Made by a program: the position numbers and the translations under genes. A stretch of 64,000 nucleotides of DNA from positions 1 through 64,000 of the forward strand of contig JAHDWN010000033.1 in the NCBI GenBank assembly GCA_023382675.1. The letters are read 5' to 3'. Below are positions 54 to 64,000 of the stretch, piece by piece; positions within the stretch are counted from its first letter, which is position 1; every line of letters starts with the position of its first letter. Below the pieces are notes generated by a model, which worked only from the letters and a program-made list of their open reading frames with translations, did not search any database and was not told the origin of the DNA. Source of the DNA: Anaerolineae bacterium. GTDB lineage: Bacteria; Chloroflexota; Anaerolineae; Aggregatilineales; Phototrophicaceae.

Positions 54-237
54 ATGAGTTCTGGGTTCACGGTACACAGTTCACGGTGCGGAAGAGTTGG
101 CGCGCAGTGCCACAGAGATATAGACAGTCACCCCACTCCAGGCACAATTGATCGGCATTACGCGCCCCGCATCCCTCATCACCTCGCCCCTCATCATCTC
201 GTTACTCGTTACTCATTACCCATTCCTCATCACTCCT
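54..237. repeat. Degenerate short tandem repeats in a gene-free leader
   Basis: Bases 1-347 hold no convincing gene. Within them, 54-91 is a run of 7-base units of the type GTTCTGG/GTTCACG, and 171-237 is a run of CTCATCA/CTCGTTA-type units. The same two motifs occur side by side at 60463-60540 and 63382-63480, so this is a dispersed family, not local low complexity. Confidence 0.6.
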
Positions 238-7717: not shown

Positions 7718-8698
7718 CTACTTGTGGTGTTCAGCCGCGCGGCCTGAGCTAATCCGCTCACCCGCTAATCCGCTAATTTGCTTCTTCCCGCACACGACAT
7801 ACGCGCCGCTCGCGCGCAGGTGCAGACGACGCACGCCGCGCTCGCCCAGCGCCAGCCGGTAGAGCGCCTCGACGGCGCTCTGGAGCGCGTAGCCGACGCC
7901 GCGCAGATACCCCGGCGTGAGCACGTGCGTCAGCGCGGCGGGGATGATACCCCAGCCCGGCCAAAGATCGACGAGCTGCATGTCGTTGGCGCTGAGCAGC
8001 GCGTGCCAGCCATCCGGCGTCAGGTGGAAGTACGACGAGCCGTGCCACGCCTCCCAGAAGCTGGCGCTGCCCAGGAAGTAGCCGCCCGGCTGGCTGACGC
8101 GGGCGATCTCGTGCATGGCGAGGTAGGGGTTGTAGAGATGCTCGAAGACCGCCGTCGAGATCACCAGGTCGAAGGTGGCGTCGGCGAACGGCAGCCGGTG
8201 CGCATCGACCAGCATGTCCGCGCCGGGGGCGATCCAGTCGGTGGTGACGACGTGCTCGAAGCCGAGCGAACGCAGGTAGCGCCGGTTGCCGCCCTGGCCG
8301 CAGCCGAGATCGAGGATGCGCGCCGCCGCGCCGCGCTCGCGCCAGAGCTGCTGGCAGTAATACTGGATGCCCTTGTCGAGCTTGGTGCCGAACTGGCGGC
8401 GGACTTCCGCGCGGCTGAAGTGCGGGAAGTCTGCGTTGACCGCGCGGAAGTAGTCGCGGGCGACGGCCTCACGATCCAGCGGCGCGACCGGGATGCGGAA
8501 CGTGTACGCCGCGTCTTGAGCGACGTCCAGCGCGCGGAAGTCGGGCCGCGCCGCGCCCTCCACGACGGTTGACGCGCTGGCGAAACCGCAGGCCGGGCAG
8601 CGCCAGCCCGCGCCCTCCGCGACCAGCTGCGTGCGATCCAGCGGGCAGACGAGCGCGTCAGTCCAGGGGGCGAGGGGTTCGGGCGTGGGGGTGGTCAT
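7718..8698 (-). CDS. Zinc-ribbon class I SAM methyltransferase
   Basis: Methyltransferase of 326 residues. The N-terminus carries a Trm112-like zinc ribbon (CPLDRT and CPACGF, four cysteines near residues 17-40). The methyltransferase core has motif I as LDLGCGQGGNRRYL and the later FDLVISTAVFEHLYNP typical of methyltransf_11/23 domains. The substrate is unknown. The start is the ATG at 8698; the reading frame stays open far upstream, but only as antisense of the WYL regulator. The last ~20 residues (after VVCGKK) are encoded by GCTAATCCGC-type repeats at 7747-7783 and look like a recent extension. Confidence 0.82.
   Translation of the reverse strand: MTTPTPEPLAPWTDALVCPLDRTQLVAEGAGWRCPACGFASASTVVEGAARPDFRALDVAQDAAYTFRIPVAPLDREAVARDYFRAVNADFPHFSRAEVRRQFGTKLDKGIQYYCQQLWRERGAAARILDLGCGQGGNRRYLRSLGFEHVVTTDWIAPGADMLVDAHRLPFADATFDLVISTAVFEHLYNPYLAMHEIARVSQPGGYFLGSASFWEAWHGSSYFHLTPDGWHALLSANDMQLVDLWPGWGIIPAALTHVLTPGYLRGVGYALQSAVEALYRLALGERGVRRLHLRASGAYVVCGKKQISGLAGERISSGRAAEHHK
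7747..7783. repeat. GCTAATCCGC-type short tandem repeat
   Basis: Successive GCTAATC/GCTCACC/GCTAATC/GCTAATT units lie inside the 3' end of the methyltransferase gene. Similar runs occur at 21777-21805, 32851-32903 and 57067-57093. Confidence 0.6.
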
Positions 8699-21552: not shown

Positions 21553-21647
21553 GGGCACGGCAGAATACTCCGGGTTTGTGTGCGCGCTGGTAATGTGAGC
21601 ATTGAACCACATATCGGCGCGGCTTGGCAAGGCGGGAGGGAGAGAGG

Positions 21648-21704
21648 GTGCTCGGTGCTCGGTAAAGGCGGTTCTGAGTTCTGGGTACTGGGTTCAGGGT
21701 GCGG
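21648..21704. repeat. GTGCTCG / GTTCTGA heptad repeats
   Basis: GTGCTCGGTGCTCGG followed by GTTCTGAGTTCTGGGTACTG and degenerate units. This is the repeat family that interrupts menE at 53050-53292. Confidence 0.65.
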
Positions 21705-28261: not shown

Positions 28262-28332
28262 TGAACCCCAGAGGTCGCAGAGATCACAGAGAGGGGGATT
28301 TTGAACCGCAAAGTCGCAAAGGACGCAAAGGT
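28262..28332. repeat. Dispersed CAGAG / CGCAAAG repeat
   Basis: A run of GTCGCAGAGATCACAGAGAG followed by AACCGCAAAGTCGCAAAGG and GACGCAAAGG. Same family as 7580-7642 and 61457-61520. Confidence 0.6.
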
Positions 28333-30756: not shown

Positions 30757-31578
30757 ATGACGCAGACGACAACCGGCACGATTGAGACGGGCAGCGGCAA
30801 ACTCTATTACGAAATGGCGGGGCAGGGCGAGACGCTCGTGCTGATCCATGCGGGATTTGTCGACAGCCGCATGTGGGATGATCAATGGGCGGCGCTCGCC
30901 GAGCGCTACCGCGTCGTCCGCTTCGACATGCGCGGCTTCGGGCGATCTGACGCGGCGACAGCGCCCACGCCCCGGCGACACGATCTGCTGGCGGTCTTCG
31001 ATCAGCTTGGCATCGCGCGGGCGACGCTGATCGGCTGTTCGCTCGGCGGCGAGGTCGCGCTCGATTTCGCGCTGGAGCAGCCGGAGCGCGTCGCGGCGCT
31101 GATCCTCGTCTCGGCTGTGCCGGGCGGCTTCCAGTTGGAGGGCGATCCGCCGCCACACATGCTCGACATGATCGGCGCAATGCAGGCGGGTGATCTGGAA
31201 CGCGCGGGCGATCTTCAGGTGCGCCTCTGGGTCGATGGCATGTTTCGCCAGCCGGAGGCAGTCGATGCGGCGGTGCGGGTGCAGGCGCGCGAGATGTGCC
31301 GTATCCCGCTGGCGCAGCACACCTGGCCGATCATGGACATGCAGCCAGCGCAGCCGCTCGATCCGCCCGCCGTCGAACGGCTGGAGACATTGGATCTGCC
31401 GGTGCTGATCATCGACGGCGCGCTCGATCATCCGGAGGTGCTGCGCGCGGGTGACGTGATGGCGGCGCGCATCCCCAACGCGCGCAAGGTCGTCATCCCC
31501 GGCGGCGCGCACGTGGTCAGCATGGAGCAGCCGGGGGCGTTTAATGCGTCAGTGGAAAGCTGGCTGGCGGCGGTTTAG
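30757..31578 (+). CDS. Alpha/beta hydrolase
   Basis: Hydrolase of 273 residues. The nucleophile elbow is GCSLGGE (Ser about residue 92), with the oxyanion region LIHAGFVDSRMWDDQW and the cap region LEGDPPPHMLDMIG. The acid and histidine appear in IIDGALDHPE and IPGGAHVVSMEQP. It may be an esterase, lactonase or C-C hydrolase. GAGGAGG precedes the ATG. It probably belongs to the regulon of the divergent WYL protein. Confidence 0.9.
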   Translation: MTQTTTGTIETGSGKLYYEMAGQGETLVLIHAGFVDSRMWDDQWAALAERYRVVRFDMRGFGRSDAATAPTPRRHDLLAVFDQLGIARATLIGCSLGGEVALDFALEQPERVAALILVSAVPGGFQLEGDPPPHMLDMIGAMQAGDLERAGDLQVRLWVDGMFRQPEAVDAAVRVQAREMCRIPLAQHTWPIMDMQPAQPLDPPAVERLETLDLPVLIIDGALDHPEVLRAGDVMAARIPNARKVVIPGGAHVVSMEQPGAFNASVESWLAAV

Positions 31579-31616
31579 CCTTTAGCTGTTAGCCGATAGC
31601 CGATAGCCTTTAGCCG
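31574..31616. repeat. TTAGCCT / TTAGCTG heptad repeat
   Basis: Successive units TTAGCCT, TTAGCTG, TTAGCCG, ATAGCCG, ATAGCCT, TTAGCCG. It overlaps the stop codon of the alpha/beta hydrolase gene. Confidence 0.6.
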
Positions 31617-32850: not shown

Positions 32851-32903
32851 TAGCAGGTCAGCAAATTAGCGCATGAGCAGATTAGCGAATGAGCACGTGA
32901 GTG
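32851..32903. repeat. GCAAATTAGC / GCAGATTAGCG repeat
   Basis: Units GCAAATTAGC, GCATGAGC, AGATTAGC, GAATGAGC, ACGTGAGT just upstream of the LLM gene. Same family as 7747-7783. Confidence 0.5.
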
Positions 32904-52292: not shown

Positions 52293-54086
52293 CTACGATT
52301 CCGCCGCCAGACGCGCCGCCGCTGCCCGGTCGATTTTGCCGCTGGCCGTCAATGGCAGCGCCACGACGAAGCGCCAGACGCGCGGCACTTTGTAGCCCGC
52401 CAGCCGCTCCCGCGCATACGCATCCAGCGCCTTGATCATCGCCGCTTGTTCCGCCTCTCTTTCAACTGGGGGTGAGGTGACGATCACTGCTGCCACCTGC
52501 TGACCCCATTCCGCGCTCGGCACGCCAACGACGCACACGTCCACCACCGAGGGATGCTCGCGCAGCACGCGCTCGACCTCCGCCGGGTAGACGTTCTCAC
52601 CGCCGGTCACGATCAGATCGCTGCGGCGGCTGACGACGAACAGATCGCCGTCGGCATCGACGTAGCCGAGGTCGCCGGTGGGGAAGCCGTCCTGATAGGG
52701 CAGGCGTTCGGGCGTGCCCCACTGCGTCAGCGGGATGTCCGGCACGGGGTCGCCCAGGTAGCCGAGCATGACGTTCGGCCCCTGGATGATGATCTCGCCG
52801 ACTTCACCGGGCGGCAGCGTGCGCCCCTCCGCATCGACAATCCGCACGCGCATGAAGGGCAGCGGACGCCCGACCGTGCCTGGCTTGGCACGTGCCTGAT
52901 CGGGCAGGCCGGTGCAGACCTGCGATGCGGCCTCGGTCAGGCCGTAGGTCGTCGCGACCGGGATGCCGCGTGCCTGCGCCGCCGCCAGCAGATCCGCCGA
53001 GGCCGCCGCGCCGCCAAGGAGCACGAGGCGAACGGACGGGGGAAAGGGCGTGCTCGGTGCTCGGTGCTCGGTGCTCGGAATGGTAGGTTCTGAGTTCTGA
53101 GTTCTGGGTTCTGAGTACTCAGTACTGGGTACTCGGTACTTGGCACCGGGTTCTGGGTACTCAGTACTGGGTGCTCGGTGCTCGGTGCTCGGATTGGCGG
53201 GTTCTGAGTTCTGGGTACTGGGTTCTGGGTACTCAGCACTTGGTACTCGGTACTGAGTACTGAGCACTGAGTACTGAGTACTAAGTACTCGATAGAGCAT
53301 CGTTGGGACAACGGAGACGAGCGTTGCCTGATGCTGTGCCGCCGCCGCGATCAGCGCGTCCGGTGTGAAGCGATCCATGACGATGACGGCGGCGCGGCAC
53401 AGGCAGGCGCGCACGAGCATCGACAGCCCACCGACGTGATACAGCGGCAGTGTCAGCAGCCAGCGGTCGCCCGGCGGGTTGCCCAGCCGCAGTGTCGAGG
53501 CCATGGCTGCGTAGTAGAGGTTGTTGAAGGTTAGCTGCGCGCCCTTGGGCGTGCCGCTCGTCCCGCTGGTGAAGAGGATCGCGGCGACGTCCAGGCGCGT
53601 GAATTCGGGCGATGGGCTGTCGGCGGTCACAGGTTGGTGGCTGGCGATGGGCAGCGATCCCATGTCGATGAAGTCGATCCGGCTGGCATTGCGGTCAGGC
53701 GGCTCGATGGTGAAGGGCTGCGCGGGGAGGCTGGTGAAATACTCCGCTGGCAGCGAGGCGTCCAGTACCACAATCTTGCACCGCGCCCGCTGCACCTGAT
53801 CGGCGACTTCGCCCGCTGTGAGGCGCAGGTTCAGCGGCACTACAGTCGCACCGCGCCGCCAGATGCCCCAGACGAGCGCCGCGTACTCGAAGCAGTTCGG
53901 CAGCAGCACGCCGACACGGTCGCCGCGCTCGACTCCGGCTGCGCCCAGGCTGTCCGCCATCGTGCCCGCGTGAGCGCTGAGTTCGGCGTATGTCCACGTG
54001 TTGTCGCCTTGGAGCAGGGCGGGCGCGTCCGGCGTCTCCTGCGCGGCGGTCACGAGCCAATCGGGTTGTGTAAAGCCTTTGGGCAT
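52293..54086 (-). CDS. menE: o-succinylbenzoate-CoA ligase (MenE) with repeat-derived insertion
   Basis: Acyl-adenylate-forming enzyme that activates o-succinylbenzoate in menaquinone synthesis. Motifs: ILFTSGTSGTPKGAQLTFNN (P-loop), YGLTEAASQVC, then GDLGYVDADGDLFVVSRRSD and GGENVYPAEVERVL. MenE is favoured over other acyl-CoA ligases because menB, menD and menF lie on the same strand downstream in the window. At 597 residues it is about 90 longer than usual: residues about 264-347 are repetitive (YSVLSTQYR, PSTEHRAPSTEYP) and come from a heptad DNA repeat. They sit between VPTMLYR and PPSVRLVLLGGAA, which normally lie close together. The start at 54086 (MPKGFTQPDW) fits better than ATG 54128. 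Confidence 0.83.
   Translation of the reverse strand: MPKGFTQPDWLVTAAQETPDAPALLQGDNTWTYAELSAHAGTMADSLGAAGVERGDRVGVLLPNCFEYAALVWGIWRRGATVVPLNLRLTAGEVADQVQRARCKIVVLDASLPAEYFTSLPAQPFTIEPPDRNASRIDFIDMGSLPIASHQPVTADSPSPEFTRLDVAAILFTSGTSGTPKGAQLTFNNLYYAAMASTLRLGNPPGDRWLLTLPLYHVGGLSMLVRACLCRAAVIVMDRFTPDALIAAAAQHQATLVSVVPTMLYRVLSTQYSVLSTQYRVPSAEYPEPSTQNSEPANPSTEHRAPSTEYPEPGAKYRVPSTEYSEPRTQNSEPTIPSTEHRAPSTPFPPSVRLVLLGGAAASADLLAAAQARGIPVATTYGLTEAASQVCTGLPDQARAKPGTVGRPLPFMRVRIVDAEGRTLPPGEVGEIIIQGPNVMLGYLGDPVPDIPLTQWGTPERLPYQDGFPTGDLGYVDADGDLFVVSRRSDLIVTGGENVYPAEVERVLREHPSVVDVCVVGVPSAEWGQQVAAVIVTSPPVEREAEQAAMIKALDAYARERLAGYKVPRVWRFVVALPLTASGKIDRAAAARLAAES
53050..53292. repeat. Heptad repeat run inserted in frame in menE
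   Basis: About 35 degenerate 7-base units of the type GTGCTCG, GTTCTGA, GTACTCA, GTACTGG. No stop occurs in the menE frame, which reads through as STQYSVL / STEHRAP. A shorter internal duplication is visible: the GTGCTCGGTGCTCGG and GTTCTGAGTTCTG blocks occur twice about 110 bases apart. Confidence 0.85.
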
Positions 54087-54139: not shown

Positions 54140-54697
54140 ATGGCAGATATAACTGCTCCGGCGCAAGAGCGCATCACCCAGGCGGAATTCAATCGACTTC
54201 TGGCGCTGCCCGAAAACCAGGATCGTCATCTGGAACTTTGGAATGGGGAGATCATCGAAACCACGCCGAGACGCTTTCACGCCATCATTCAAAATCTGTT
54301 CGCGGCATTGTTTTACAACTATCTGCAAAAGAACCCGATTGGGACTTCCTACACAGAGTTTCAGATCCAGCTTGAGAACGAAGACTACGCACCCATCCCG
54401 GATGTCTGCATTGTCTTGAAGGAACGCGACGAACTTTCTGCAAACGACTTTTTGCGCGTGATGCCCGATGTTGTGGTCGAAATCCAATCGCCAGATCAAT
54501 CTGATAGATTTATGCAGGAAAAAGCGGACTACTATCTGCAGCGTGGCTGTCGCATGGTCATCCTTGTGTATGAGAAACCCGTGGTCGAAGTCCTGACGCC
54601 GACGACACGAGACCTGCTTCTGCCGGGCGATACGCTCAGCGGCGGCGATGTGCTGCCAGATTTCAGCCTTGAGGTCGCTCGTATCTTCCCTGATTGA
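54140..54697 (+). CDS. Uma2-family (DUF820) endonuclease-like protein 1
   Basis: Protein of 185 residues with a PD-(D/E)XK nuclease-like fold. The core is PDVCIVLKER, then PDVVVEIQSPDQSDRFMQEK with its conserved Asp, Glu, Gln and Lys, and ADYYLQRGCRMVILVYEKP. N-terminal ITQAEFNRLLALPE and ELWNGEIIE are also typical. Many copies occur per genome in Chloroflexi and Cyanobacteria; the biological role is unknown, with mobile-element or repeat-related functions suspected. GCAGGG precedes the ATG. Confidence 0.88.
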   Translation: MADITAPAQERITQAEFNRLLALPENQDRHLELWNGEIIETTPRRFHAIIQNLFAALFYNYLQKNPIGTSYTEFQIQLENEDYAPIPDVCIVLKERDELSANDFLRVMPDVVVEIQSPDQSDRFMQEKADYYLQRGCRMVILVYEKPVVEVLTPTTRDLLLPGDTLSGGDVLPDFSLEVARIFPD

Positions 54698-54710
54698 ACC
54701 GTGTGTTCGA

Positions 54711-55898
54711 TTACAACCGACCGTCGGGCAGTCGCCCGGCCTTCAACGCCTCGATCTGTGCGGCGGTGAACGGCGGCTCGAATAGATCAGCCGACTCATG
54801 ATAGCAGCGAAACATGTCGATGATGAAGTGCAGTCGGTCGGGTAGCCGTGACCAATCGACCGCGCCGCTGCCCTGCGTGCTGTCCAGCGTGGGGTCGATC
54901 TGTTCGAGCAGTGCGCGCAGGTCGGGCAGATCGAGGTGCTGGAGCGAAGCGGGAAATTCGGCGGGCACGTCATCGCCCAGGCGCAGATGGACGCCATGGG
55001 GCAGGCCGATGGTCATGACATACTCGGTGATCAGCAGGCGCGTTCGGCGGCGTGCTTCCGCCAGCAGCGCCTCGAGCGCCTGATCCAGCGGGCTGGGGCG
55101 GCCGAACAGCCGCAGCAGGAACAGACGGACGCGCGCGAGCCAGGTGCGGCGCGGAAACAGCGCCTTGATCAGACGCAGCCGGAACGGCCCGCGATCGACA
55201 AACGCCGCGTTCAGCGCTTCGGCGATCTCCGGCTGGAGGCGTGTCTGCTCGTGATAGCCGATCTCGATGTTGGCGAGCAGCATCAGCTCGGCGCGCTGCT
55301 TGGCGTTGCTCGCGAACAGCGCCTGATAGTAGCGGGTGAAGGCGCGCCGCAAGTAGTCCTGCCCGTCCGGTGGCTCGCCGGGGCGCAGACCTGCGCAAAA
55401 GCGCGCCAGATTGTCCGCGTCGAAGGCAGTATCGCCCAGACACATCTCAAAAAAGCGGGCGAATTCGCGGCCAATCTCTTCGTAGACCTTCTTGTTGCCG
55501 CGCCCAACGGCGGCGCTGGCACGGTCGAACGCGGCCAGCGGATTGAGCACGTCGGCGAGCGTTTCCTCAACCTCGGCCTCGTCCGCTTCCGAGCCGAGCG
55601 CCTGTGCCGAAGCGACGATGTCCTGTTCCGCCTGGGCGGTGGCAGGCGCGGATAGCACGATGCTTTCGAGCGTGCGCGCCACGTCTTCTTTGCGGATCGT
55701 CTGCCCGGCCTGTTTGGATGCCCACGTAGCGAAGGTACACCAGTTGGCGTTCACCCCTGTGCGCGCCGTCATGACGACCGCCAGCTCGTGATAGCACTGG
55801 GTGATCAGCAGGTTGCGGATCACCGGGTCAGGCAAGACGGCGATGTGCTCGACATCGGCGACCGTCGGAATGGGATCGACTGGGGGGAGTTGGTTCAT
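54711..55898 (-). CDS. Protein of unknown function (395 aa)
   Basis: I recognise no named family. The protein is mostly helical and soluble. The N-terminal region [20 protein letters not shown] then [14 protein letters not shown] is distinctive and resembles conserved unnamed proteins I recall from actinobacteria. A positively charged stretch near residue 265 ([20 protein letters not shown]) may be a short membrane-associated helix. It converges with the first Uma2 gene, 13 bases apart. The 270 bases upstream (55899-56168) show no gene. Confidence 0.75.
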
Positions 55899-56168
55899 AG
55901 GTGTTCGTCACCTGCGGCGGGCGAATCCACGAAATGAGTACGCGTTTCATCTTACAATGATAACCAACTACGCCGACTATCCGTCGAGTGAAGATGCGCG
56001 CCTCATCGATCAGGCGTGAGGGTGCGACGCCGAAATGTGCTAAAGATCATGTGTTCTGCTGCCATTGGTAAATACCCTTTCAGGTCGCTCAATCTTAAGA
56101 TCATCAATGACATCGTGAACAGGGGGGTGTTGGACTACGCGTGTTGATCACGGTAGAAGGAGGAGAAC

Positions 56169-57059
56169 ATGGCGACCGCTCGCCAACCATCCGTCAGCGC
56201 CCTCAACGTGGCCCTCTGCCGCGCCGTTGCTGCCCACGAAACCCGCGACGACATTCGCGGGCCGGATCACCTGGCCGAGGTCTTCCTCGACGAAGCCGGG
56301 CGGCAGTCTTTGACTAATCCCGCGGTCTATCCGCTGATCTTGCATAAGCTGGAGGCGGCCTCGCCCGGCGGCTACGAGTATTTTATCGCCCGCACGGCCT
56401 ATCTGGATGCCGTTGTTGAAGATGCCCTGCGCAGCCATGTCCCACAGCTCGTCTTCCTGGGCGCGGGCTATGACACGCGCGCCTGCCGCTTCGCCGATCT
56501 GCTCGGCAGCACGCGCGTCTTCGAACTGGATGAGGCGGCCACGCAGACGCACAAACGCGCCATGCTCGAAGCGGCCAAGGTCGCCAGCCCGCCGCCGTTG
56601 ACCTACGTCACCATCGACTTCACGACCGAAAGCCTGGCGGACAAACTGGCCGAGGCAGGCTATCGCGAGGATCTGCAGACGCTGTTCGTCCTGGAGGGCG
56701 TCACCTACTATCTGCCGCCGCGCACGGTCGATGAGATGTTCGATTTCGTCCGCCGCCACGCCGCGCGGGGGAGCCGCATCGCCTTCGACTACATGCTGCC
56801 CGCGGATCAGCTTGAGGGGCGGCACGGCGCGCAGCAATCGCGCGCAGCCATGCAGGCAATGTACGCCGACGAGCCGCTGCACTTCGACATGGACGAACTC
56901 CAGGTGTTTGGCTATCTGGCGACGCGCGGCTTCGAGCTGGTCGAACACCTGACGGCGGAGGACATGCAGAAGCGCTATCTGACGCTCAAGGATGGCACAC
57001 CCGCCGGGCAGATCCTGGATTTGTTCCGCCTCGTGCTGGCGCAGGTGAAGGTGGGGTAG
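56169..57059 (+). CDS. LCMT/PPM1-family class I methyltransferase
   Basis: SAM-dependent methyltransferase of 296 residues of the leucine carboxyl methyltransferase type (TIGR00027-like). Landmarks are QLVFLGAGYDTRACRF (motif I in the family's GAGYDTR form), VFELDEAATQTHKRAML and FVLEGVTYYLPPRTVDEM. It is only distantly related to the LCMT protein at 39481, whose motif is GCGLDSR. Likely substrates are carboxylates of small molecules. AAGGAGGAG lies directly before the ATG. Confidence 0.9.
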   Translation: MATARQPSVSALNVALCRAVAAHETRDDIRGPDHLAEVFLDEAGRQSLTNPAVYPLILHKLEAASPGGYEYFIARTAYLDAVVEDALRSHVPQLVFLGAGYDTRACRFADLLGSTRVFELDEAATQTHKRAMLEAAKVASPPPLTYVTIDFTTESLADKLAEAGYREDLQTLFVLEGVTYYLPPRTVDEMFDFVRRHAARGSRIAFDYMLPADQLEGRHGAQQSRAAMQAMYADEPLHFDMDELQVFGYLATRGFELVEHLTAEDMQKRYLTLKDGTPAGQILDLFRLVLAQVKVG

Positions 57060-57066
57060 CGGGGTG

Positions 57067-57093
57067 TCGGATTAGCGGATTAGCGGATCAGCT
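57067..57093. repeat. GGATTAGCGGATTAGC repeat
   Basis: Two and a half GGATTAGC units eight bases after the methyltransferase stop codon. Same family as 7747-7783 and 21777-21805. Confidence 0.5.
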
Positions 57094-57202
57094 TTGGGGC
57101 CAGTGCGGAGGCGGGTTGCGTCAGTGCTGGCTCAGTTCAAATCTACCCGTTGACCGGGTCTCATCATCAAAGTGTTGTGTCTGTTCGACTGAGGGAAGAC
57201 TT

Positions 57203-57763
57203 ATGTATACGCCGAGGCAGGGACGCATGACGCGGATGGAGTTCCACCGTCTGGCGGCGCGTCCCGATAATGCGGATCGGGCCCTTGAGCTATTCAATGG
57301 TGTCGTTTGCTGCCGGGAGTTCAGCGCGAGTCGTGCGTATGCCGCGTCGGTGGCCTGCGCAGCACTCGGCAGGTACGTCGAAGAGCGCGCGGTTGGGTGT
57401 GTCTTCTCCCGGCTGAGCATCGAGATTCCCGGTGAACCCTACTTCATGTTCGCGCCCGACGTCAGCTTCGTCAGTTTTGAGCGGGGCGCGGTCTTCGGCT
57501 GGGATATGCCGCTGCTCTACATGCCGGATCTGGTCGTCGAAATCCAGTCGCCCGATCAATCCGACAAGTTCATGCGCGATAAGGCCGATTACTACCTCAA
57601 GCACGGCTGCCGCCGCGTCATCCTCGTCTACGCCAAGCGGATTGTCGAGGTGCTGACGCCCGATGACCGCCAACTGCTGACGGTCGATGACACACTCACC
57701 GGCGGCGACGTGCTGCCCGGCTTCAGCGTCGAGGTCGCGAAGCTGTTTCCGGAGCTGGAGTGA
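57203..57763 (+). CDS. Uma2-family (DUF820) endonuclease-like protein 2
   Basis: Protein of 186 residues, paralogue of the one at 54140. The core is nearly identical over PDLVVEIQSPDQSDKFMRDK and ADYYLKHGCRRVILVYAKR, and LTGGDVLPGFSVEVAKLFPE at the C-terminus. The N-terminal half differs much more and carries unusual cysteines (GVVCCREFS). GAGGGA precedes ATG 57203. It faces the TIR-NACHT-HEAT gene with 12 bases between the stop codons. Confidence 0.87.
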   Translation: MYTPRQGRMTRMEFHRLAARPDNADRALELFNGVVCCREFSASRAYAASVACAALGRYVEERAVGCVFSRLSIEIPGEPYFMFAPDVSFVSFERGAVFGWDMPLLYMPDLVVEIQSPDQSDKFMRDKADYYLKHGCRRVILVYAKRIVEVLTPDDRQLLTVDDTLTGGDVLPGFSVEVAKLFPELE

Positions 57764-57775
57764 GGGTGTGCGGCC

Positions 57776-60283
57776 CTATTCGTCGCGCGGCTTGAGCTTG
57801 CCCGCGTAGTAGTCGGCAAGCGCGGCTCGTGCGGCTGGGTGGTCGGGGAATTTACGCAGCGCACGGGCAGCGAAATGGCGGACAAACCTCACCGGATCAC
57901 GCAGTGTGTCAATGAGCGCTGGGACAGCGCGAGTATCGCTCAACTGGCCGAGCGCCTCAGCTGTGCTACGGCGGACACTCGCCTCCTGATCACGCAGGGT
58001 TTTCATCAGCGGTGGGACGGCGCGAGCATCGCGCAACCGGCCTAGTGCATCGACTGCGCTTCTTCGAACGGAGAAATCCTTGTCTTGTAAGACATCGATT
58101 AGCGATTCAGCGGCACTCGCATCGCCCAAATGACCCAACGCACGGGCGGAGCTGCTGCGAACAAGGGCGCGTGGGTCCTGCAAGCTGTCGAGGAGCGGAA
58201 GGACGGCAAGAGCATTGCCCAGTCTTCCCAGTGCACGGGCAGCATAGCTGCAGACACGTGTCTCCTGATCGCGCAGGCTTTCGATTAGTTGCGGGAAGGC
58301 GCGTTCATCACCTATCTTGCCGAGTGCATCCACGGCATCACGCCTTACAAGCCAATGATGATCCTGCGCGCTGTCGATCAGTGGAAGGACGGCGCGCGTA
58401 TCGCCTAGCTTGCCGAGCATTTGGGCGGCACTGCGGCGGACACTCGCCTCTGGGTCGCGTAGTGCCTCGTTAAGCGGTAGGACGACGCGCGCATCGCGCA
58501 ACAGTCCTAGCGAGTTGACAGTGCTGCCCCGCACACGCGCATTCGAGTCACGCAGAGCATCGATGAGCGGTGACATGGCGCGTACGTCGCCCAACTGGCC
58601 GAGCGCAATGGCAGAGCTACGGCGGAGATCCTCATCCGGGTCACGCAAGGCGGCTGTTGCTGTCAAGAACGTCAACATATCGCGCAGGAGAAGATGAAGG
58701 AATCGCCAGCTTAGTGCGCGGTTTCCATCCCGCCGAGTAACAGGCTCATCGCCAGCGCTCCGCAGTAGGTCGAGCCGCTGCGCCATAGCCGTGACAGCTT
58801 TGATGTCGCTACCGCCAATGTCAGCCTCCACAATGCGCGTATGATCATCTCTTTTACCGTCACTTATTGCCCTCACCACCGCCAACCCCAGCCGGTGTTT
58901 CAATTGTGCTGCAGTGTACGGCAGCGGATCGTCCGGCGTGCGCTTCTGCTCGTGCTGCCAGCGTTTGTCGATGAAGGCATCCCAGATGCGGTCATTCAGG
59001 TCGCCTGCATCCAGGCCGCCCAAGGCACGCACCGATTCTGGCGCATCTTCGAAAGCGACACGGACGAGCGCCAGCAACAGCGGCGTGCGCAGCGCGTCCT
59101 TCAGGTCGGCGTCGGCGCAGATGACCTCCCACAGGCCTACGACTTCGGTCAGATACATCTGCATCTGTGCATCGTCAAGCCGTTCCAGGCGGACGGCGCA
59201 ATTCAAGCTGGCCTGGGTGCCGATCTGGCGGTATTCCTCGACGCGGCTGCTCAAGATGATCTTGCCAGTGGTGGACAGGGCTTTCAAGAAGCGCTCGCGC
59301 GGGTCATACTGTTCCCCGTCCGGCTTGTCGGGATTGACAGGGCGGCGGCTGCCGAGTTCGTCCAGGCCGTCGAGCAGGAGCAGCGATTGTCCGCCTTCGA
59401 TCAAGTTCTGCAGCGCAGCAGCGTCCAGGCTGTGAATAGCCGCCAGCCACTCATGCAGCGGCGTCTGTGCGTACGAATCCCAGCCGGAGATGCGCGCGAA
59501 GATCGGCAGCGGTTGGGATGGATCGCTCAGGCGGGCGGCGGCGGTATCGCGGGCGAAGGCCAGCAGGGTGGTCGTCTTGCCCGCGCCTGGCTCGCCCAGC
59601 AGCAGTACGCGGCCAGCGCAGTGGGCATGGTTGTAGGCGTCGCGCAGCGAGTCAAAGGCTTCTGGCGTTGGGTCGGGCGCGGGCGTTTCGCGCAACGTGT
59701 AGGGAATGTACTTGGGATTGAGCTGGCGTGTCTTGCATTGGACATCGCCGACCGTCTCGACCGCGCGCAGCGTGATCGTTTCATCGGAGAAGACCGACGC
59801 GCGAATCGAATCGACCACATCGGCGTAGAGCGCCTCCAGGTAGGGCTTGTAGGGATCAGGCTGCTGTGCGGGCGCGCTGACCGTCTGGCTGCTGGCGACA
59901 GCCTCGCCGCTCAGCCAATGGCATAGGGTGTCGAAGGCGGCATCCCAGCCCTTGAAGAAGTCGATCCAGGTGTTCGTGAAGACCTGGATCGGCGGCGGCA
60001 CATCGGCAAAGCGCGCGACCAGGATCGGCTTCTTGAGGTAGCTGGCGTAGGCGATTTCGCGGCGGACAAAGCTGTCGTCGCGTAGGGTGTCCGGCGTGAC
60101 GCAGACGATCACATGGCTCGCCGCTTGCAGCGCCTTTTCGATCTCAGCGGTGAAGTCCTGCGCCGGGTCGATGCCGCGCAGATCGCGCCACACGGCGTAG
60201 AGCGGCCTGAGGGCGGCATCCAGCGGCGCTGCGCCGAGGTCGGCATCCTTGCGGGCGTAGCTGATGAAGACGGACGCGGCCAT
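57776..60283 (-). CDS. TIR-NACHT-HEAT protein (candidate antiphage NLR)
   Basis: Cytoplasmic protein of 835 residues with the layout of an immune receptor. Residues 1-125 are a TIR domain (SVFISYARKDAD; VWRDLRGIDPAQDFTAEIEK; the likely NADase Glu76 in SFVRREIAYASYLKKPIL). Residues about 215-480 are a NACHT NTPase with Walker A GEPGAGKT (230-237) and Walker B LLLLDGLDELG (301-311), plus ILSSRVEEYRQ as sensor region. Residues 547-794 are eight HEAT repeats of exactly 31 residues, each of the type RRSAVDALGRLRDARAVPPL, with a partial ninth. By analogy with bacterial NLRs the repeats sense an invader and TIR depletes NAD+. This role is inferred. GGAG precedes the ATG. Confidence 0.88.
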   Translation of the reverse strand: MAASVFISYARKDADLGAAPLDAALRPLYAVWRDLRGIDPAQDFTAEIEKALQAASHVIVCVTPDTLRDDSFVRREIAYASYLKKPILVARFADVPPPIQVFTNTWIDFFKGWDAAFDTLCHWLSGEAVASSQTVSAPAQQPDPYKPYLEALYADVVDSIRASVFSDETITLRAVETVGDVQCKTRQLNPKYIPYTLRETPAPDPTPEAFDSLRDAYNHAHCAGRVLLLGEPGAGKTTTLLAFARDTAAARLSDPSQPLPIFARISGWDSYAQTPLHEWLAAIHSLDAAALQNLIEGGQSLLLLDGLDELGSRRPVNPDKPDGEQYDPRERFLKALSTTGKIILSSRVEEYRQIGTQASLNCAVRLERLDDAQMQMYLTEVVGLWEVICADADLKDALRTPLLLALVRVAFEDAPESVRALGGLDAGDLNDRIWDAFIDKRWQHEQKRTPDDPLPYTAAQLKHRLGLAVVRAISDGKRDDHTRIVEADIGGSDIKAVTAMAQRLDLLRSAGDEPVTRRDGNRALSWRFLHLLLRDMLTFLTATAALRDPDEDLRRSSAIALGQLGDVRAMSPLIDALRDSNARVRGSTVNSLGLLRDARVVLPLNEALRDPEASVRRSAAQMLGKLGDTRAVLPLIDSAQDHHWLVRRDAVDALGKIGDERAFPQLIESLRDQETRVCSYAARALGRLGNALAVLPLLDSLQDPRALVRSSSARALGHLGDASAAESLIDVLQDKDFSVRRSAVDALGRLRDARAVPPLMKTLRDQEASVRRSTAEALGQLSDTRAVPALIDTLRDPVRFVRHFAARALRKFPDHPAARAALADYYAGKLKPRDE

Positions 60284-60462
60284 GCGCTCTCCGGGGCTGG
60301 GTGGATCAATCGTGTTGCGTAGATGGTAACACGAATCGCGCGGTTGCCCAGCAGTCGAAGGGTATGGATTGACACGCCGGACGCCAAGAATGGCGTCCCT
60401 ACCATTGCCTGCCTGTTGCGTTGCTCGCCAAGAATGGCGCTCTTACGGTGATCGCTGCGCGC

Positions 60463-60540
60463 GCCTCATCACCTCGTTCCTCGTCACCTCATCACCTATC
60501 CCTGAGCACCGAGTACCGAGCACTGAGTACCGAATTTCGA
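60463..60540. repeat. CTCATCACCTCG and GAGTACC heptad repeats
   Basis: CTCATCACCTCGTTCCTCG-type units followed by GAGCACCGAGTACCGAGCAC units, ending 14 bases before the menB stop codon. The rest of 60284-60553 has no gene; two copies of the phrase CAAGAATGGCG lie at about 60386 and 60429. Confidence 0.6.
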
Positions 60541-60553
60541 ACCCCGCGCTTCC

Positions 60554-61420
60554 TCACGGTCGCCACGGATACTTGCGGTAGTTCGGCTTGCGCTTCTGGA
60601 CGTAGGCGTTGCGGCCTTCCTGGCCTTCCTCGGTCATGTAGAAGAGCAGCGTGGCATCGCCCGCCAGCTGCTGGATGCCCGTCTGCCCGTCCACGTCAGC
60701 GTTCATCGACGCCTTGAGGATGCGGATCGCCAGCGGCGAGTGCTGCAGTATCTCGCGCGCCCACTGAACGCCCTCGACCTCCAGCTCCTCCAGTGGCACG
60801 ACGGTATTGACCAGCCCCATGTCGAGCGCCTGCTGTGCGTCATACTGGCGGCAGAGATACCAGATCTCGCGCGCCTTCTTCTGGCCGACGATCCGGCTCA
60901 GATAGCTGCTGCCGTAGCCGCCGTCGAAGCTGCCGACGCGCGGGCCGGTCTGGCCGAAGACGGCCGTGTCCGCCGCAATCGTCAGGTCGCAGATCACGTG
61001 CAGCACGTGCCCGCCGCCGATGGCATAGCCCGGCACGAGCGCGATCACGACCTTGGGGATGGTGCGGATGATGCGCTGGAGCGGCAGCACGTTCAGCCGC
61101 GCGACCTTATCGCTGCCGACGTAGCCGGCGTCGCCGCGCACCTTTTGATCGCCGCCGCTGCAGAACGCCCACTTGCCATCCCTGGCCGGGCCATTGCCCG
61201 TCAGCAGGATGACGCCGATGTCGGGATCATCCCACACGTCCATGAACGCCTCGGTCATCTGCTGGATCGTGTCCGGCGTGAAGGCGTTGCGCACGTCCGG
61301 GCGGTTGAAGGCGATACGCGCGATGCCCTCGGTCTTGTGGTAGGTGATCTCGCTGTAGGGCTTGACTTCGTGCCACTCTGCGCCGGGCTTGACGTGGCGC
61401 GGGGTAGTGGTTTCGCTCAT
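60554..61420 (-). CDS. menB: 1,4-dihydroxy-2-naphthoyl-CoA synthase
   Basis: Crotonase-fold enzyme that cyclises o-succinylbenzoyl-CoA to dihydroxynaphthoyl-CoA. At 288 residues it has normal length. Diagnostic stretches: [38 protein letters not shown] (oxyanion hole), [20 protein letters not shown] (MenB-specific) and the C-terminal [26 protein letters not shown] precedes ATG 61420. It lies about 100 bases downstream of menD on the same strand. Confidence 0.95.
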
Positions 61421-61456
61421 GTTGGTGTGCTCCTCAATTGATGAATATGTAATGGG

Positions 61457-61520
61457 AACCACAGAGACGCAGAGGCCACAGAGGGGGATTTGTCTCTGTG
61501 CTCTCTGTGTCTCTGCGGTT
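61457..61520. repeat. CACAGAGACGCAGAGG inverted repeat
   Basis: Left arm 61457-61483 (AACCACAGAGACGCAGAGG and on) and right arm 61494-61520 pair at 23 of 27 positions around a ten-base loop. It lies between menB and menD and touches the menD stop codon. Same base family as 7580-7642 and 28262-28332, but here doubled as an inverted pair; it could act as an attenuator. Confidence 0.65.
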
Positions 61521-63424
61521 CAATGCTCTGCCTGGTCTTTCATCGGCGGATCAAGATTCTTCAGCGCTTCCGCCACCTGATCCATGATCGCTTTGCGGCG
61601 GCGGGCGTCTTCTTCGGCGTCGGTGATGACCTCGACGATGCTCGACCTGCCGCGCGCCAGCGCTGCCCCGAAGGCCGCGCGGAAGCCGTCACGGTCACGG
61701 GCTTGCGCATAGTCAAAATCGAACTGCGCGGCGGTGTGTTCGAAGGTCATCCCGTGCGGCGTGAGGAACAGGTCGGTGAACTCTGGCTCGAAGGCTTCGT
61801 TGTTGATCGGCAGGCGGCGGAAGATCTGCCCGCCGTTGTTGTTGAGCAGGACGATGACGAGGTTGCGGATGCCGTTGCGCTTCGCCGCCAGCAGGGCGTT
61901 CATGTCGTGGTAGAAGGCGAGGTCGCCGGTGATGAGCACCGTCGGCGTGTCTGGATCGGCAGCCGCCACGCCGAGCGCGCTGCTGATCGTGCCGTCGATG
62001 CCGCTCGCGCCGCGATTGCAGAAGACACGAAAGTCTTTCTTTAGATGAGCAAAGCCAAATTGGTCGAGATGTCTCACGGCCAGACTGTTCGCGACGAACA
62101 CATTGCCCGTTTCCAACAGCGTCACCGTGTCCGAGACGGCTGCGCCATCAAACCAGCCAACCTCGTTCACGGCCCGATTGAACACCCGCTCACTGGTCAT
62201 GTCGGCGCTTGCGAATAGATCATACCACGCCACATCTCGGCGACGATTCGTGTACCAGACTTTTAGAATCTGCTCAACCACCACGACAGGGTCAGCCTGA
62301 ATAAACCAGTCAATCCGATGCTCAAAATCCGTCCAACTGCCGTCGCCGCTGATGACGATTCGATGCTCGGGTTGAATCGCATTCAAATAGTCGAGCAGCG
62401 TCTGCGATGTGGGCATCGCGCCGAAGTGCAGCACGACTTGCGGATGTGGCCACTGCCGCGCCATCGGCAAGAAAAAGTCATAATCCGCGATCACGTTCGA
62501 TTGGTCAGGATAGTAATGTGGACTTGCCTGTCCGTCTGCAAAGAGAATCGCTCCGCCCATCGCAAGATTGTCCACCATGCCGCCGAATTCGCCCCAGGGT
62601 GTGCGCGGCCCGCACACAATCAACACGCGCTCGCTGCGCTTAAACAGCTTCTTGAGCCGATTCATCTGTTCGCGTGTCGGCATCATCACGCTGCGTTCGA
62701 TCTGCGTGTGCGGGGCGGGGTGATCGGCGGTGGGTAGGGGCGCATCATGATGCGCCCCTACGCCGGTATTCATCGGGGTTTGGGGTGAGGGCATCCACCA
62801 TTCGATCTCGCGGCCTTCGCCGTTGACCTCGGTCGGTTCGAGCGGCTTGCGGAACGGGAAGTTGAGATGCACCGCGCCCTTGGGCAGCCCATTCGCCAGT
62901 GCGTAGGCGCGGTCGGCCAGGGTGCGCAGGTTGCGCAGCGCGACCTCCGGCGGGTTGGCTTCCGGCAGCGCCACATCATACGCCCATAGGACGTGATCGC
63001 CGTAGAGCTTGACCTGATCGACCGTCTGGTTCGCGCCGCTGTCGCGCAGCTCATGTGGCCGATCCGCCGTCAGCACAAGCAGTGGCACGTGGGCGTAGTG
63101 CGCCTCGACCACCGCCGGGTAGAAGTTGGCCGCCGCCGTGCCCGACGAGCAGACAACCGCCGCCGGGGCATCGTGCACCAGCCCCAGGCCGAGCGCCATG
63201 AAGGCCGCGCCGCGCTCGTCGATGTGCGACCAGACGCGGATCGCCGGGTGACGCGCGAAGGCCATCGTCAGCGGTGTGCTGCGGCTGCCGGGCGCGATCA
63301 CCACGTCGCGCAGTCCGGCGCGCGCCAGCTCGTCCACAAATGTATACGTCCAGACGTAGTTGCGGTTGGGGGCGTGGATGGTGGTTCTGGGTTGTGGGTT
63401 CTGAGTTCTGGGTTCGCGGTTCAT
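61520..63424 (-). CDS. menD: SEPHCHC synthase (MenD)
   Basis: Thiamine-diphosphate enzyme joining isochorismate and 2-oxoglutarate, the first committed step of menaquinone synthesis. PYR domain: FVDELARAGLRDVVIAPGSR and the catalytic Glu70 in HIDERGAAF. PP domain: NRGASGIDGTISSALG and GDLAFYHDMNALLA. Length 634 is about 50 over typical. Two oddities: residues 2-15 (NREPRTQNPQPRTT) are encoded by the heptad repeat, which also supplies the only usable start codon, and residues about 222-231 (GVGAHHDAPL) are encoded by a 28-bp palindrome within a poorly conserved linker. No ribosome site is visible. Confidence 0.92.
   Translation of the reverse strand: MNREPRTQNPQPRTTIHAPNRNYVWTYTFVDELARAGLRDVVIAPGSRSTPLTMAFARHPAIRVWSHIDERGAAFMALGLGLVHDAPAAVVCSSGTAAANFYPAVVEAHYAHVPLLVLTADRPHELRDSGANQTVDQVKLYGDHVLWAYDVALPEANPPEVALRNLRTLADRAYALANGLPKGAVHLNFPFRKPLEPTEVNGEGREIEWWMPSPQTPMNTGVGAHHDAPLPTADHPAPHTQIERSVMMPTREQMNRLKKLFKRSERVLIVCGPRTPWGEFGGMVDNLAMGGAILFADGQASPHYYPDQSNVIADYDFFLPMARQWPHPQVVLHFGAMPTSQTLLDYLNAIQPEHRIVISGDGSWTDFEHRIDWFIQADPVVVVEQILKVWYTNRRRDVAWYDLFASADMTSERVFNRAVNEVGWFDGAAVSDTVTLLETGNVFVANSLAVRHLDQFGFAHLKKDFRVFCNRGASGIDGTISSALGVAAADPDTPTVLITGDLAFYHDMNALLAAKRNGIRNLVIVLLNNNGGQIFRRLPINNEAFEPEFTDLFLTPHGMTFEHTAAQFDFDYAQARDRDGFRAAFGAALARGRSSIVEVITDAEEDARRRKAIMDQVAEALKNLDPPMKDQAEH
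62734..62761. repeat. 28-bp palindrome inside menD
   Basis: GTAGGGGCGCATCA is followed directly by its exact reverse complement. It has the same ends as the hairpin family at 14162-14184 (GTAGGGACG). It lies between the PYR domain and the central domain of MenD and keeps the frame open. Confidence 0.75.
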
Positions 63425-63767: not shown

Positions 63768-63833
63768 TGAACTCAGAACTCGGAACTCAGAACCCCTCTG
63801 GCTGACTGAGCACCGAGCGCTGAGTTCTGAGCA
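63768..63833. repeat. Heptad repeats forming the menF 3' end
   Basis: AACTCAG, AACTCGG, AACTCAG, then GAGCACCGAGCGCTGAGTTCTG-type units (split). The menF stop codon (minus strand TGA at 63775-63773) is within it. Confidence 0.7.
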
Positions 63834-64000
63834 CCTGCATTTGCCAATCCCAGCGCGCCGAGCAGCGGCTTGAACTTGAGCGCCGTCTCGTCCCACTCTT
63901 TGGCCGGGATGCTGTCGCCGACGATGCCCGCGCCCGCGTACAGACGCACGCGCTCGCCCAGCGCCACCGCCGAGCGGATCGCGACCGCGAATTCGCCGCC
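63773..64000 (-). CDS. menF: Isochorismate synthase C-terminus (partial, runs off the window)
   Basis: The 3' end of a chorismate-utilising enzyme; the gene begins beyond base 64000. The visible part, RLYAGAGIVGDSIPAKEWDE followed by TALKFKPLLGAL, is the conserved C-terminal signature of isochorismate, anthranilate and aminodeoxychorismate synthases. The position directly upstream of menD and menB supports isochorismate synthase. The usual protein ends near KPLLGAL; here about 24 more residues (AQNSALGAQSARGVLSSEF and before) follow, encoded by the heptad repeat. Confidence 0.85.
   Translation of the reverse strand, partial: GGEFAVAIRSAVALGERVRLYAGAGIVGDSIPAKEWDETALKFKPLLGALGLANAGAQNSALGAQSARGVLSSEF

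Follow-up and report, generated by a model that had tools for sequence, protein, structure and literature searches.

The Rickettsia palindromic elements (RPEs) are stem-loop units of 105-146 bp with terminal inverted repeats (Ogata et al. 2000, as reviewed in PMC2229807 and PMC10969869). The element analyzed here is a family of degenerate seven-base units (heptads), one array of which lies in frame within menE, the gene for o-succinylbenzoate--CoA ligase, in a 64,000-nucleotide stretch of the Anaerolineae bacterium assembly GCA_023382675.1 (contig JAHDWN010000033.1, positions 1 to 64,000; hereafter the window). It resembles the RPEs as a small, dispersed, self-complementary repeat that occurs both between genes and in frame within genes for conserved proteins, being found within menE, a YfhO-like gene and a PMT-like gene in addition to 63 other arrays. 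Unlike the RPEs, the heptad arrays vary in size (21 to 235 bp in a scan of the arrays of the genome) and have no fixed hairpin unit.

The TAACTGA heptamer repeats of Beggiatoaceae, Cyanobacteria and Bacteroidetes (MacGregor 2015, PMC4679880) are also dispersed, mostly intergenic 7-base tandem repeats, and a further likeness is that one orientation has stops in all frames while the other is open, with a few open reading frames (ORFs) containing repeats. The units described here differ in being degenerate and ordered into a fixed composite, and in two species they interrupt a conserved enzyme in its catalytic domain. The TAACTGA family was rejected as a class for them, as the window holds no match to two TAACTGA units at up to 2 mismatches. 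Tandem repeats of the Borgs are built of perfect units whose lengths are multiples of three and are enriched in membrane and extracellular proteins (PMC9879509). They share with the heptads a fast-evolving, in-frame presence in ORFs that yields disordered regions, but the unit here is seven bases long and degenerate (identity of 0.72 at lag 7), and only its higher-order periods are divisible by three. Heptamer-derived satellites are among the most abundant bacterial satellite families, and Chloroflexus aurantiacus appears in the table of that survey (PMC6749651); the heptad composite differs from such satellites in being dispersed and in also entering genes. By the features tested, the heptad element belongs to none of the Rickettsia, TAACTGA and Borg classes. 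The open-licence PMC literature contained no match to three strings of heptad peptides or DNA, and nothing relevant on Anaerolineae repeats. The STRR heptads of cyanobacteria may be a further relative.

The heptad array inside menE

A sequence-only reading of the window had proposed that an intergenic heptad repeat expanded in frame inside an otherwise intact menE and was tolerated there. The repeat is present at the position it gave, in a stop-free ORF, and the following features describe it.

52293 to 54086, minus strand: menE (o-succinylbenzoate--CoA ligase), 597 codons counted from the ATG at 54086, a start that fits the relatives
53050 to 53292, plus strand (the element strand, antisense to menE): heptad array with 27 exact RGTDCTV units (unit count and Tandem Repeats Finder, TRF)
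53056 to 53282, plus strand: 114-bp higher-order unit, present twice in the array (TRF)
53046 to 53288, minus strand: coding insert that supplies residues 267-347 of the 597 in the protein and is predicted to be disordered (alignment and AlphaFold2)

The richest other 243-bp stretch of the window, scanned on the plus strand in 10-base steps, held six RGTDCTV units versus 27 in the array, and 2000 shuffles of the array segment gave a mean of 0.44 units and a maximum of three. Self-identity of the array was 0.72, 0.70 and 0.66 at lags of 7, 14 and 21 and only 0.18-0.28 at the remaining lags from 1 to 20, and TRF reported a period of 7 together with the two-copy period of 114 bp. Inverted arms within the array are just 71-78% complementary, and their position shifts along it. 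The longest ORF over menE spans 611 codons (54128 to 52293, minus strand) without a stop. The earlier estimate of about 240 bases added in frame was borne out, while the extent of 84 residues (264-347) is corrected to 81 residues (243 nt).

Of 41 genomes searched, 21 had no match at E <= 1e-60, and the site was compared among those with a match. In the sister species (G002) the array in this MenE loop is longer and likewise in frame, with 372 versus 243 nt and 124 versus 81 residues. Of the 18 relatives aligned besides G002, one (G009) starts behind the site, and the insert was absent from all 17 that cover it. Among 80 public MenE loci, some of which overlap relatives already counted (L204 is G013, L213 is G003, L218 is G004 and L222 is G020), 72 have a loop of 5-8 residues and the remaining eight have no more than 38. 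One locus taken for a long MenE (L233) was dropped when its frame turned out to be ordinary. Relatives with non-repetitive sequence of the same length at this site, which would have spoken against an expanded repeat, were looked for in both sets and none was found.

The shared site and the lineage-specific sizes are established, as is selection on both sides of the insert. For the window's genome (G000) and G002, the ratio of nonsynonymous to synonymous substitution rates (dN/dS) before the insert is 0.23 by NG86 and 0.08 by YN00; after it, NG86 gives 0.20 and YN00 gives 0.10. These values (0.08-0.23) indicate that purifying selection acts on both halves of menE. The insert itself diverged in length and sequence far more than its flanks. 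This comparison is best read as showing an insert already carried by the ancestor that the window's species shares with G002. The spacing of recurring markers is 114 bp in the G000 array and 105 and 84 bp in the G002 array, all multiples of three. Two copies within the G002 array align over 84 bases at 96% identity, with a single 21-bp stretch setting them apart, which indicates that the array has turned over recently and in frame. In-frame growth of the repeat was thus correctly anticipated, although the steps that can be seen are whole blocks (114, 105, 84 and 21 bp) and not single heptads; slippage by single heptads is disfavored as the sole cause of the in-gene arrays.

An AlphaFold2 model of the window's MenE, built on a 54-sequence alignment, has a mean predicted local distance difference test score (pLDDT) of 83.7 and a predicted template modeling score of 0.82, with pLDDT of at least 90 for 406 of the 597 residues. 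Values below 50 occur at residues 139-147 and 275-342, and the latter stretch falls between a helix (261-276) and a strand (354-357). The model points to a confident MenE core with a predicted disordered loop formed by the array; the claim that the insert separates two normally adjacent strands failed, since the junction is from helix to strand. The closest solved structures are those of Bacillus subtilis MenE, in which the two parts of the phmmer match are five residues apart.

A second type of repeat was seen in another MenE. Locus L205 (Anaerolineae bacterium MAG_03) encodes a MenE with two loop insertions (L205:3394-3498 and L205:3826-3939) that hold a C/G-rich repeat unlike the heptads. 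One of these is in the same loop as the heptad array, and that loop is 38 residues long in L205. Its DNA partly recurs in the locus (38 bp at 92%, 135-172; 39 bp at 85%, 2006-2044) and recurs again as 24 bp at 96% in the second MenE loop. Because the L205 repeat differs from the heptads, the loop seems permissive to inserts, to judge from this one case.

The repeat family and its other host genes

A search of the source genome, a 6.4 Mb draft in 110 contigs of which the window is part of contig C33, gave 166 matches to a three-unit tandem pattern and none to its backward control. The stretches around these matches hold at least 66 arrays, a count that covers 100 of the 106 matches starting with G, and locus L117 by way of L126. 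When oriented alike, the arrays tend by eye to share a common block order, namely GTGCTC/GTACTC, then GTTCTG, often followed by GTTCAC/GTACAC and GGTGCG. Among the 63 arrays outside the three host genes, whose placement outside genes is based on ORFs and reading by eye, a GTTCAC-type unit lies within or after the array in 35, GTGCG in 42, and GATGAG within 100 bases in 25. Because the arrays tend to share block order and trailing units, the family looks like a polar composite element and not a set of unrelated slippage products.

Among the matches listed, arrays of the source genome were crowded on contigs C14, C16, C17, C27, C32, C33 and C42, with none on contigs such as C1, C3, C4, C7, C8 and C10. 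Other members had been reported in the window at 54-91, 21648-21704 and 60463-60540; all three places hold the family, the first by eye, and the bounds of the other two are adjusted below.

54 to 91, plus strand: related module of GTTCTG, then GTTCAC/GTACAC units, then GGTGCGG (read by eye)
21647 to 21690, plus strand: array outside recognized genes (family scan)
60504 to 60531, minus strand: array beside the menB 3' end (family scan)
63383 to 63410, plus strand: array where the menD ORF begins (leader or N-terminus), on the strand opposite to menD (family scan)
63774 to 63835, minus strand: array over the final codons of the ORF for isochorismate synthase, sharing the strand of that gene and lying behind its Pfam domain (family scan)

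The distribution of the three-unit pattern is patchy, with matches in 15 of 61 relatives and 20 of 301 Chloroflexota genomes (own genome included). At the places listed in other genomes the dialects differ, for example AGTGCTGAGTACTG in G008 and G012. The AGTGCTG/AGTACTG-dialect arrays of these two genomes often formed plus and minus pairs about 45-125 bases apart among the listed places, which suggests hairpin-like or inverted-pair elements. The backward control gave 187 and 288 matches in G125 (versus 16 and 17 forward), 14 and 10 in G293 (versus none), and 2 and 1 in G162 and G212. Because control matches are abundant in G125 and present in G293, related heptad repeats that read backward evidently exist elsewhere in the phylum. 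Across 12 syntenic spacers shared by G000 and G002 (four of them also by G013), arrays vary in presence and content. Length differences between G000 and G002 over 20 between-block intervals were 0 modulo three in eight, 1 in nine and 2 in three, so that no frame rule is visible in these intervals, which mix spacers and genes, one of them covering part of menE.

The search also uncovered further interrupted genes, which the earlier reading had proposed to look for. Two other genes of the source genome have arrays well within frame, encoding a YfhO-like membrane protein (C6:4747) and a PMT-like glycosyltransferase (C9:14670), and relatives of each were found in all 10 genomes chosen for it. With boundaries set by us, the YfhO-like array occupies the same site in G000 and G002 with 35 and 25 residues, and the PMT-like array does so with 36 and 64. 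G013 has a short, similar-looking insert in the YfhO-like gene and the other eight genomes have none; the PMT-like insert was absent from the other nine genomes. The dN/dS values (NG86) before and after the insert are 0.19 and 0.14 for the YfhO-like gene and 0.36 and 0.26 for the PMT-like gene. A fourth candidate occurs in G002, where an array would form an N-terminal tail on a membrane protein (L169). Twenty ORFs crossing arrays, a subset of the overlapping frames listed, were scanned with Pfam. Most of the other long frames over arrays had no family or had the array near one end, and these were not counted as interrupted genes; a frame matching DUF433 was set aside as well, as its array lies upstream of the domain and was taken, by position only, as a leader.

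All three in-gene arrays of the source genome run antisense to the element strand. In the 65 arrays other than that of menE, stop triplets occur at 4.0 per 100 bp in the antisense direction versus 1.6 on the element strand; because the antisense direction holds more stop triplets, openness alone does not explain the placement. The antisense strand reads as a hydrophilic peptide rich in Pro, Ser, Thr and Glu, with a grand average of hydropathy of -1.16 versus +0.65 for the element strand (63 arrays), and the mean z score of RNA folding is -2.4 antisense versus -4.7 on the element strand (22 arrays of at least 60 nt, including that of menE). It is our suggestion, from three genes only, that the antisense bias is tied to the hydrophilic peptide and the weaker RNA folding; the menE array speaks against it, as its own coding strand folds far better than shuffles (z of -7.4).

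MenE and its neighborhood

The window ORF matched the NCBIfam menE model TIGR01923 with a score of 332.9 (cut-off 330.15), split into two stretches, while its remaining top models, including PRK03640, fall short of their own cut-offs. Despite its insert, the window's menE does not score below the insert-free menE of G013 (324.3). Two acyl-CoA ligase paralogs reach 282.3 and 268.4 on TIGR01923. Among the other acyl-CoA ligases, five were scanned at E <= 1e-100, which is too strict for TIGR01923, and two of these were rescanned at 1e-75, with L006 left out. The neighboring men genes are as follows.

60554 to 61462, minus strand: menB (TIGR01929, 421.5 bits, cut-off 342.7)
61520 to 63424, minus strand: menD (TIGR00173, 403.2 bits, cut-off 244.2)
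63773 to 64000, minus strand: 3' end of an isochorismate synthase gene (menF-type) that continues past the window (TIGR00543, 351.3 bits, cut-off 224.75)

These genes precede menE on the same strand, with about 6.4 kb between menB and menE. In G013 the men gene order is identical, but menE adjoins menB directly. The gap in the window (54140-60540) contains ORFs that we take to be Uma2-like and HEAT-repeat-like. From the TIGR01923 cut-off and the men neighbors we identify the ORF as MenE, with activity on o-succinylbenzoate predicted, and from the neighboring menB, menD and isochorismate synthase genes we infer that its pathway is essential. TRF also reported other short tandem families in the window, with units of 7-9 bases or longer such as CGCAAAGA, GCTAATCC and TTAGCCG, at 173-219, 7748-7777, 28307-28331, 31575-31616, 32852-32901 and 57068-57092.

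Explanations and meaning of the insert

We consider it quite probable that a dispersed, partly self-complementary heptad element is tolerated as a disordered MenE loop and turns over under reading-frame constraint. Related heptads (a GTGCTC block, a GTTCTG block, often a GTTCAC block, and GGTGCG) would make up an element that normally lies outside genes in this lineage. One copy would have entered menE antisense before G000 and G002 split, presumably in a single insertion event, at a helix-strand loop that usually has 5-8 residues. A regular heptad array encodes the same 7-residue peptide whatever the frame, and on this strand its hydrophilic, Ser/Thr/Pro/Glu-rich product would form a disordered loop and present no block to folding. 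Survival would then be set by total length modulo three and by loop disorder, and later gains and losses of blocks would be filtered for frame; because the MenE half behind the array is still needed, only frame-keeping changes would survive. The YfhO-like and PMT-like genes would have had the same history, which extends it to at least two membrane-protein genes. In favor of this reading, an array drawn from the 65 others would have a given antisense frame open with a probability near 0.025 at a length of 235 nt and near 0.003 at 372 nt. We infer translation of the array, its near-neutrality and the mode in which the element spreads.

Several observations weigh against this reading. That both species have an open frame follows in part from the selection of open ORFs. 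On its coding strand, the menE array forms a strong RNA fold (z of -7.4 versus shuffles), a possible hindrance to translation. No clean empty site or insertion boundary could be read in the 12 syntenic spacers when target-site duplications were sought there. In-gene cases are few, at three of 66 arrays, with a subset of the overlapping ORFs scanned. The menE score barely exceeds the TIGR01923 cut-off, and the scores of G002 (328.8) and the insert-free G013 (324.3) lie just under it.

A different view is that the insert has acquired a role and that its disordered loop is kept for partner binding, membrane attachment or regulation. Its persistence in two species while the rest of menE has a dN of about 0.1, the retention of such inserts in three genes, and a composition that remains Pro/Ser/Thr/Glu-rich in both species are all compatible with this. 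We regard it as rather unlikely, given that length and sequence of the insert diverged far beyond those of the flanks and that 17 relatives manage without it. Considerably less plausible is phase variation, in which the gain or loss of single heptads would shift the frame and toggle MenE on and off. A seven-base unit would indeed shift the frame at each step, and the three coding-strand frames of the G000 array have 0, 0 and 4 stops, that is, two open and one closed, but the units are degenerate (as the lag-7 identity indicates), the frame is intact in both species, and the steps that can be seen are frame-keeping blocks.

Many enzymes would be expected to suffer from 81 extra residues in a catalytic domain, and menE could be dead or produced as two separate pieces. 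The two halves are equally conserved with no stop between them, and over the 60 codons that follow the insert the start-like codons are limited to a single GTG in G000 and, at different positions, one GTG and one TTG in G002, with no ribosome-binding motif seen in the 18 bases before any of them; a dead or split gene is, in our estimate, slightly more improbable even than phase variation. Repeats are also known to mislead assemblers, and the source is a 110-contig draft, yet the separate genome of G002 has an insert of other length and sequence at the same site with the frame intact in both, which makes an assembly artefact scarcely credible.

The MenE loop provides a natural series of repeat DNA evolving in a core enzyme, from 5-8 residues in most relatives to 81 and 124 in the two sisters. 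In different Anaerolineae, one and the same MenE loop is occupied by two unrelated repeat families. Since seven and three have no common factor, every frame on one strand of a heptad array would yield the same harmless, disordered peptide, and it is tempting, if doubtful, to speculate that heptad elements are frame-proof repeat DNA able to enter genes in any phase, with core-enzyme loops as recurrent landing pads that seed disordered segments, perhaps later recruited. For annotators, the case is a caution that such segments can be genuine gene parts and not errors, and it is relevant to the origin of new disordered segments in bacterial proteins.
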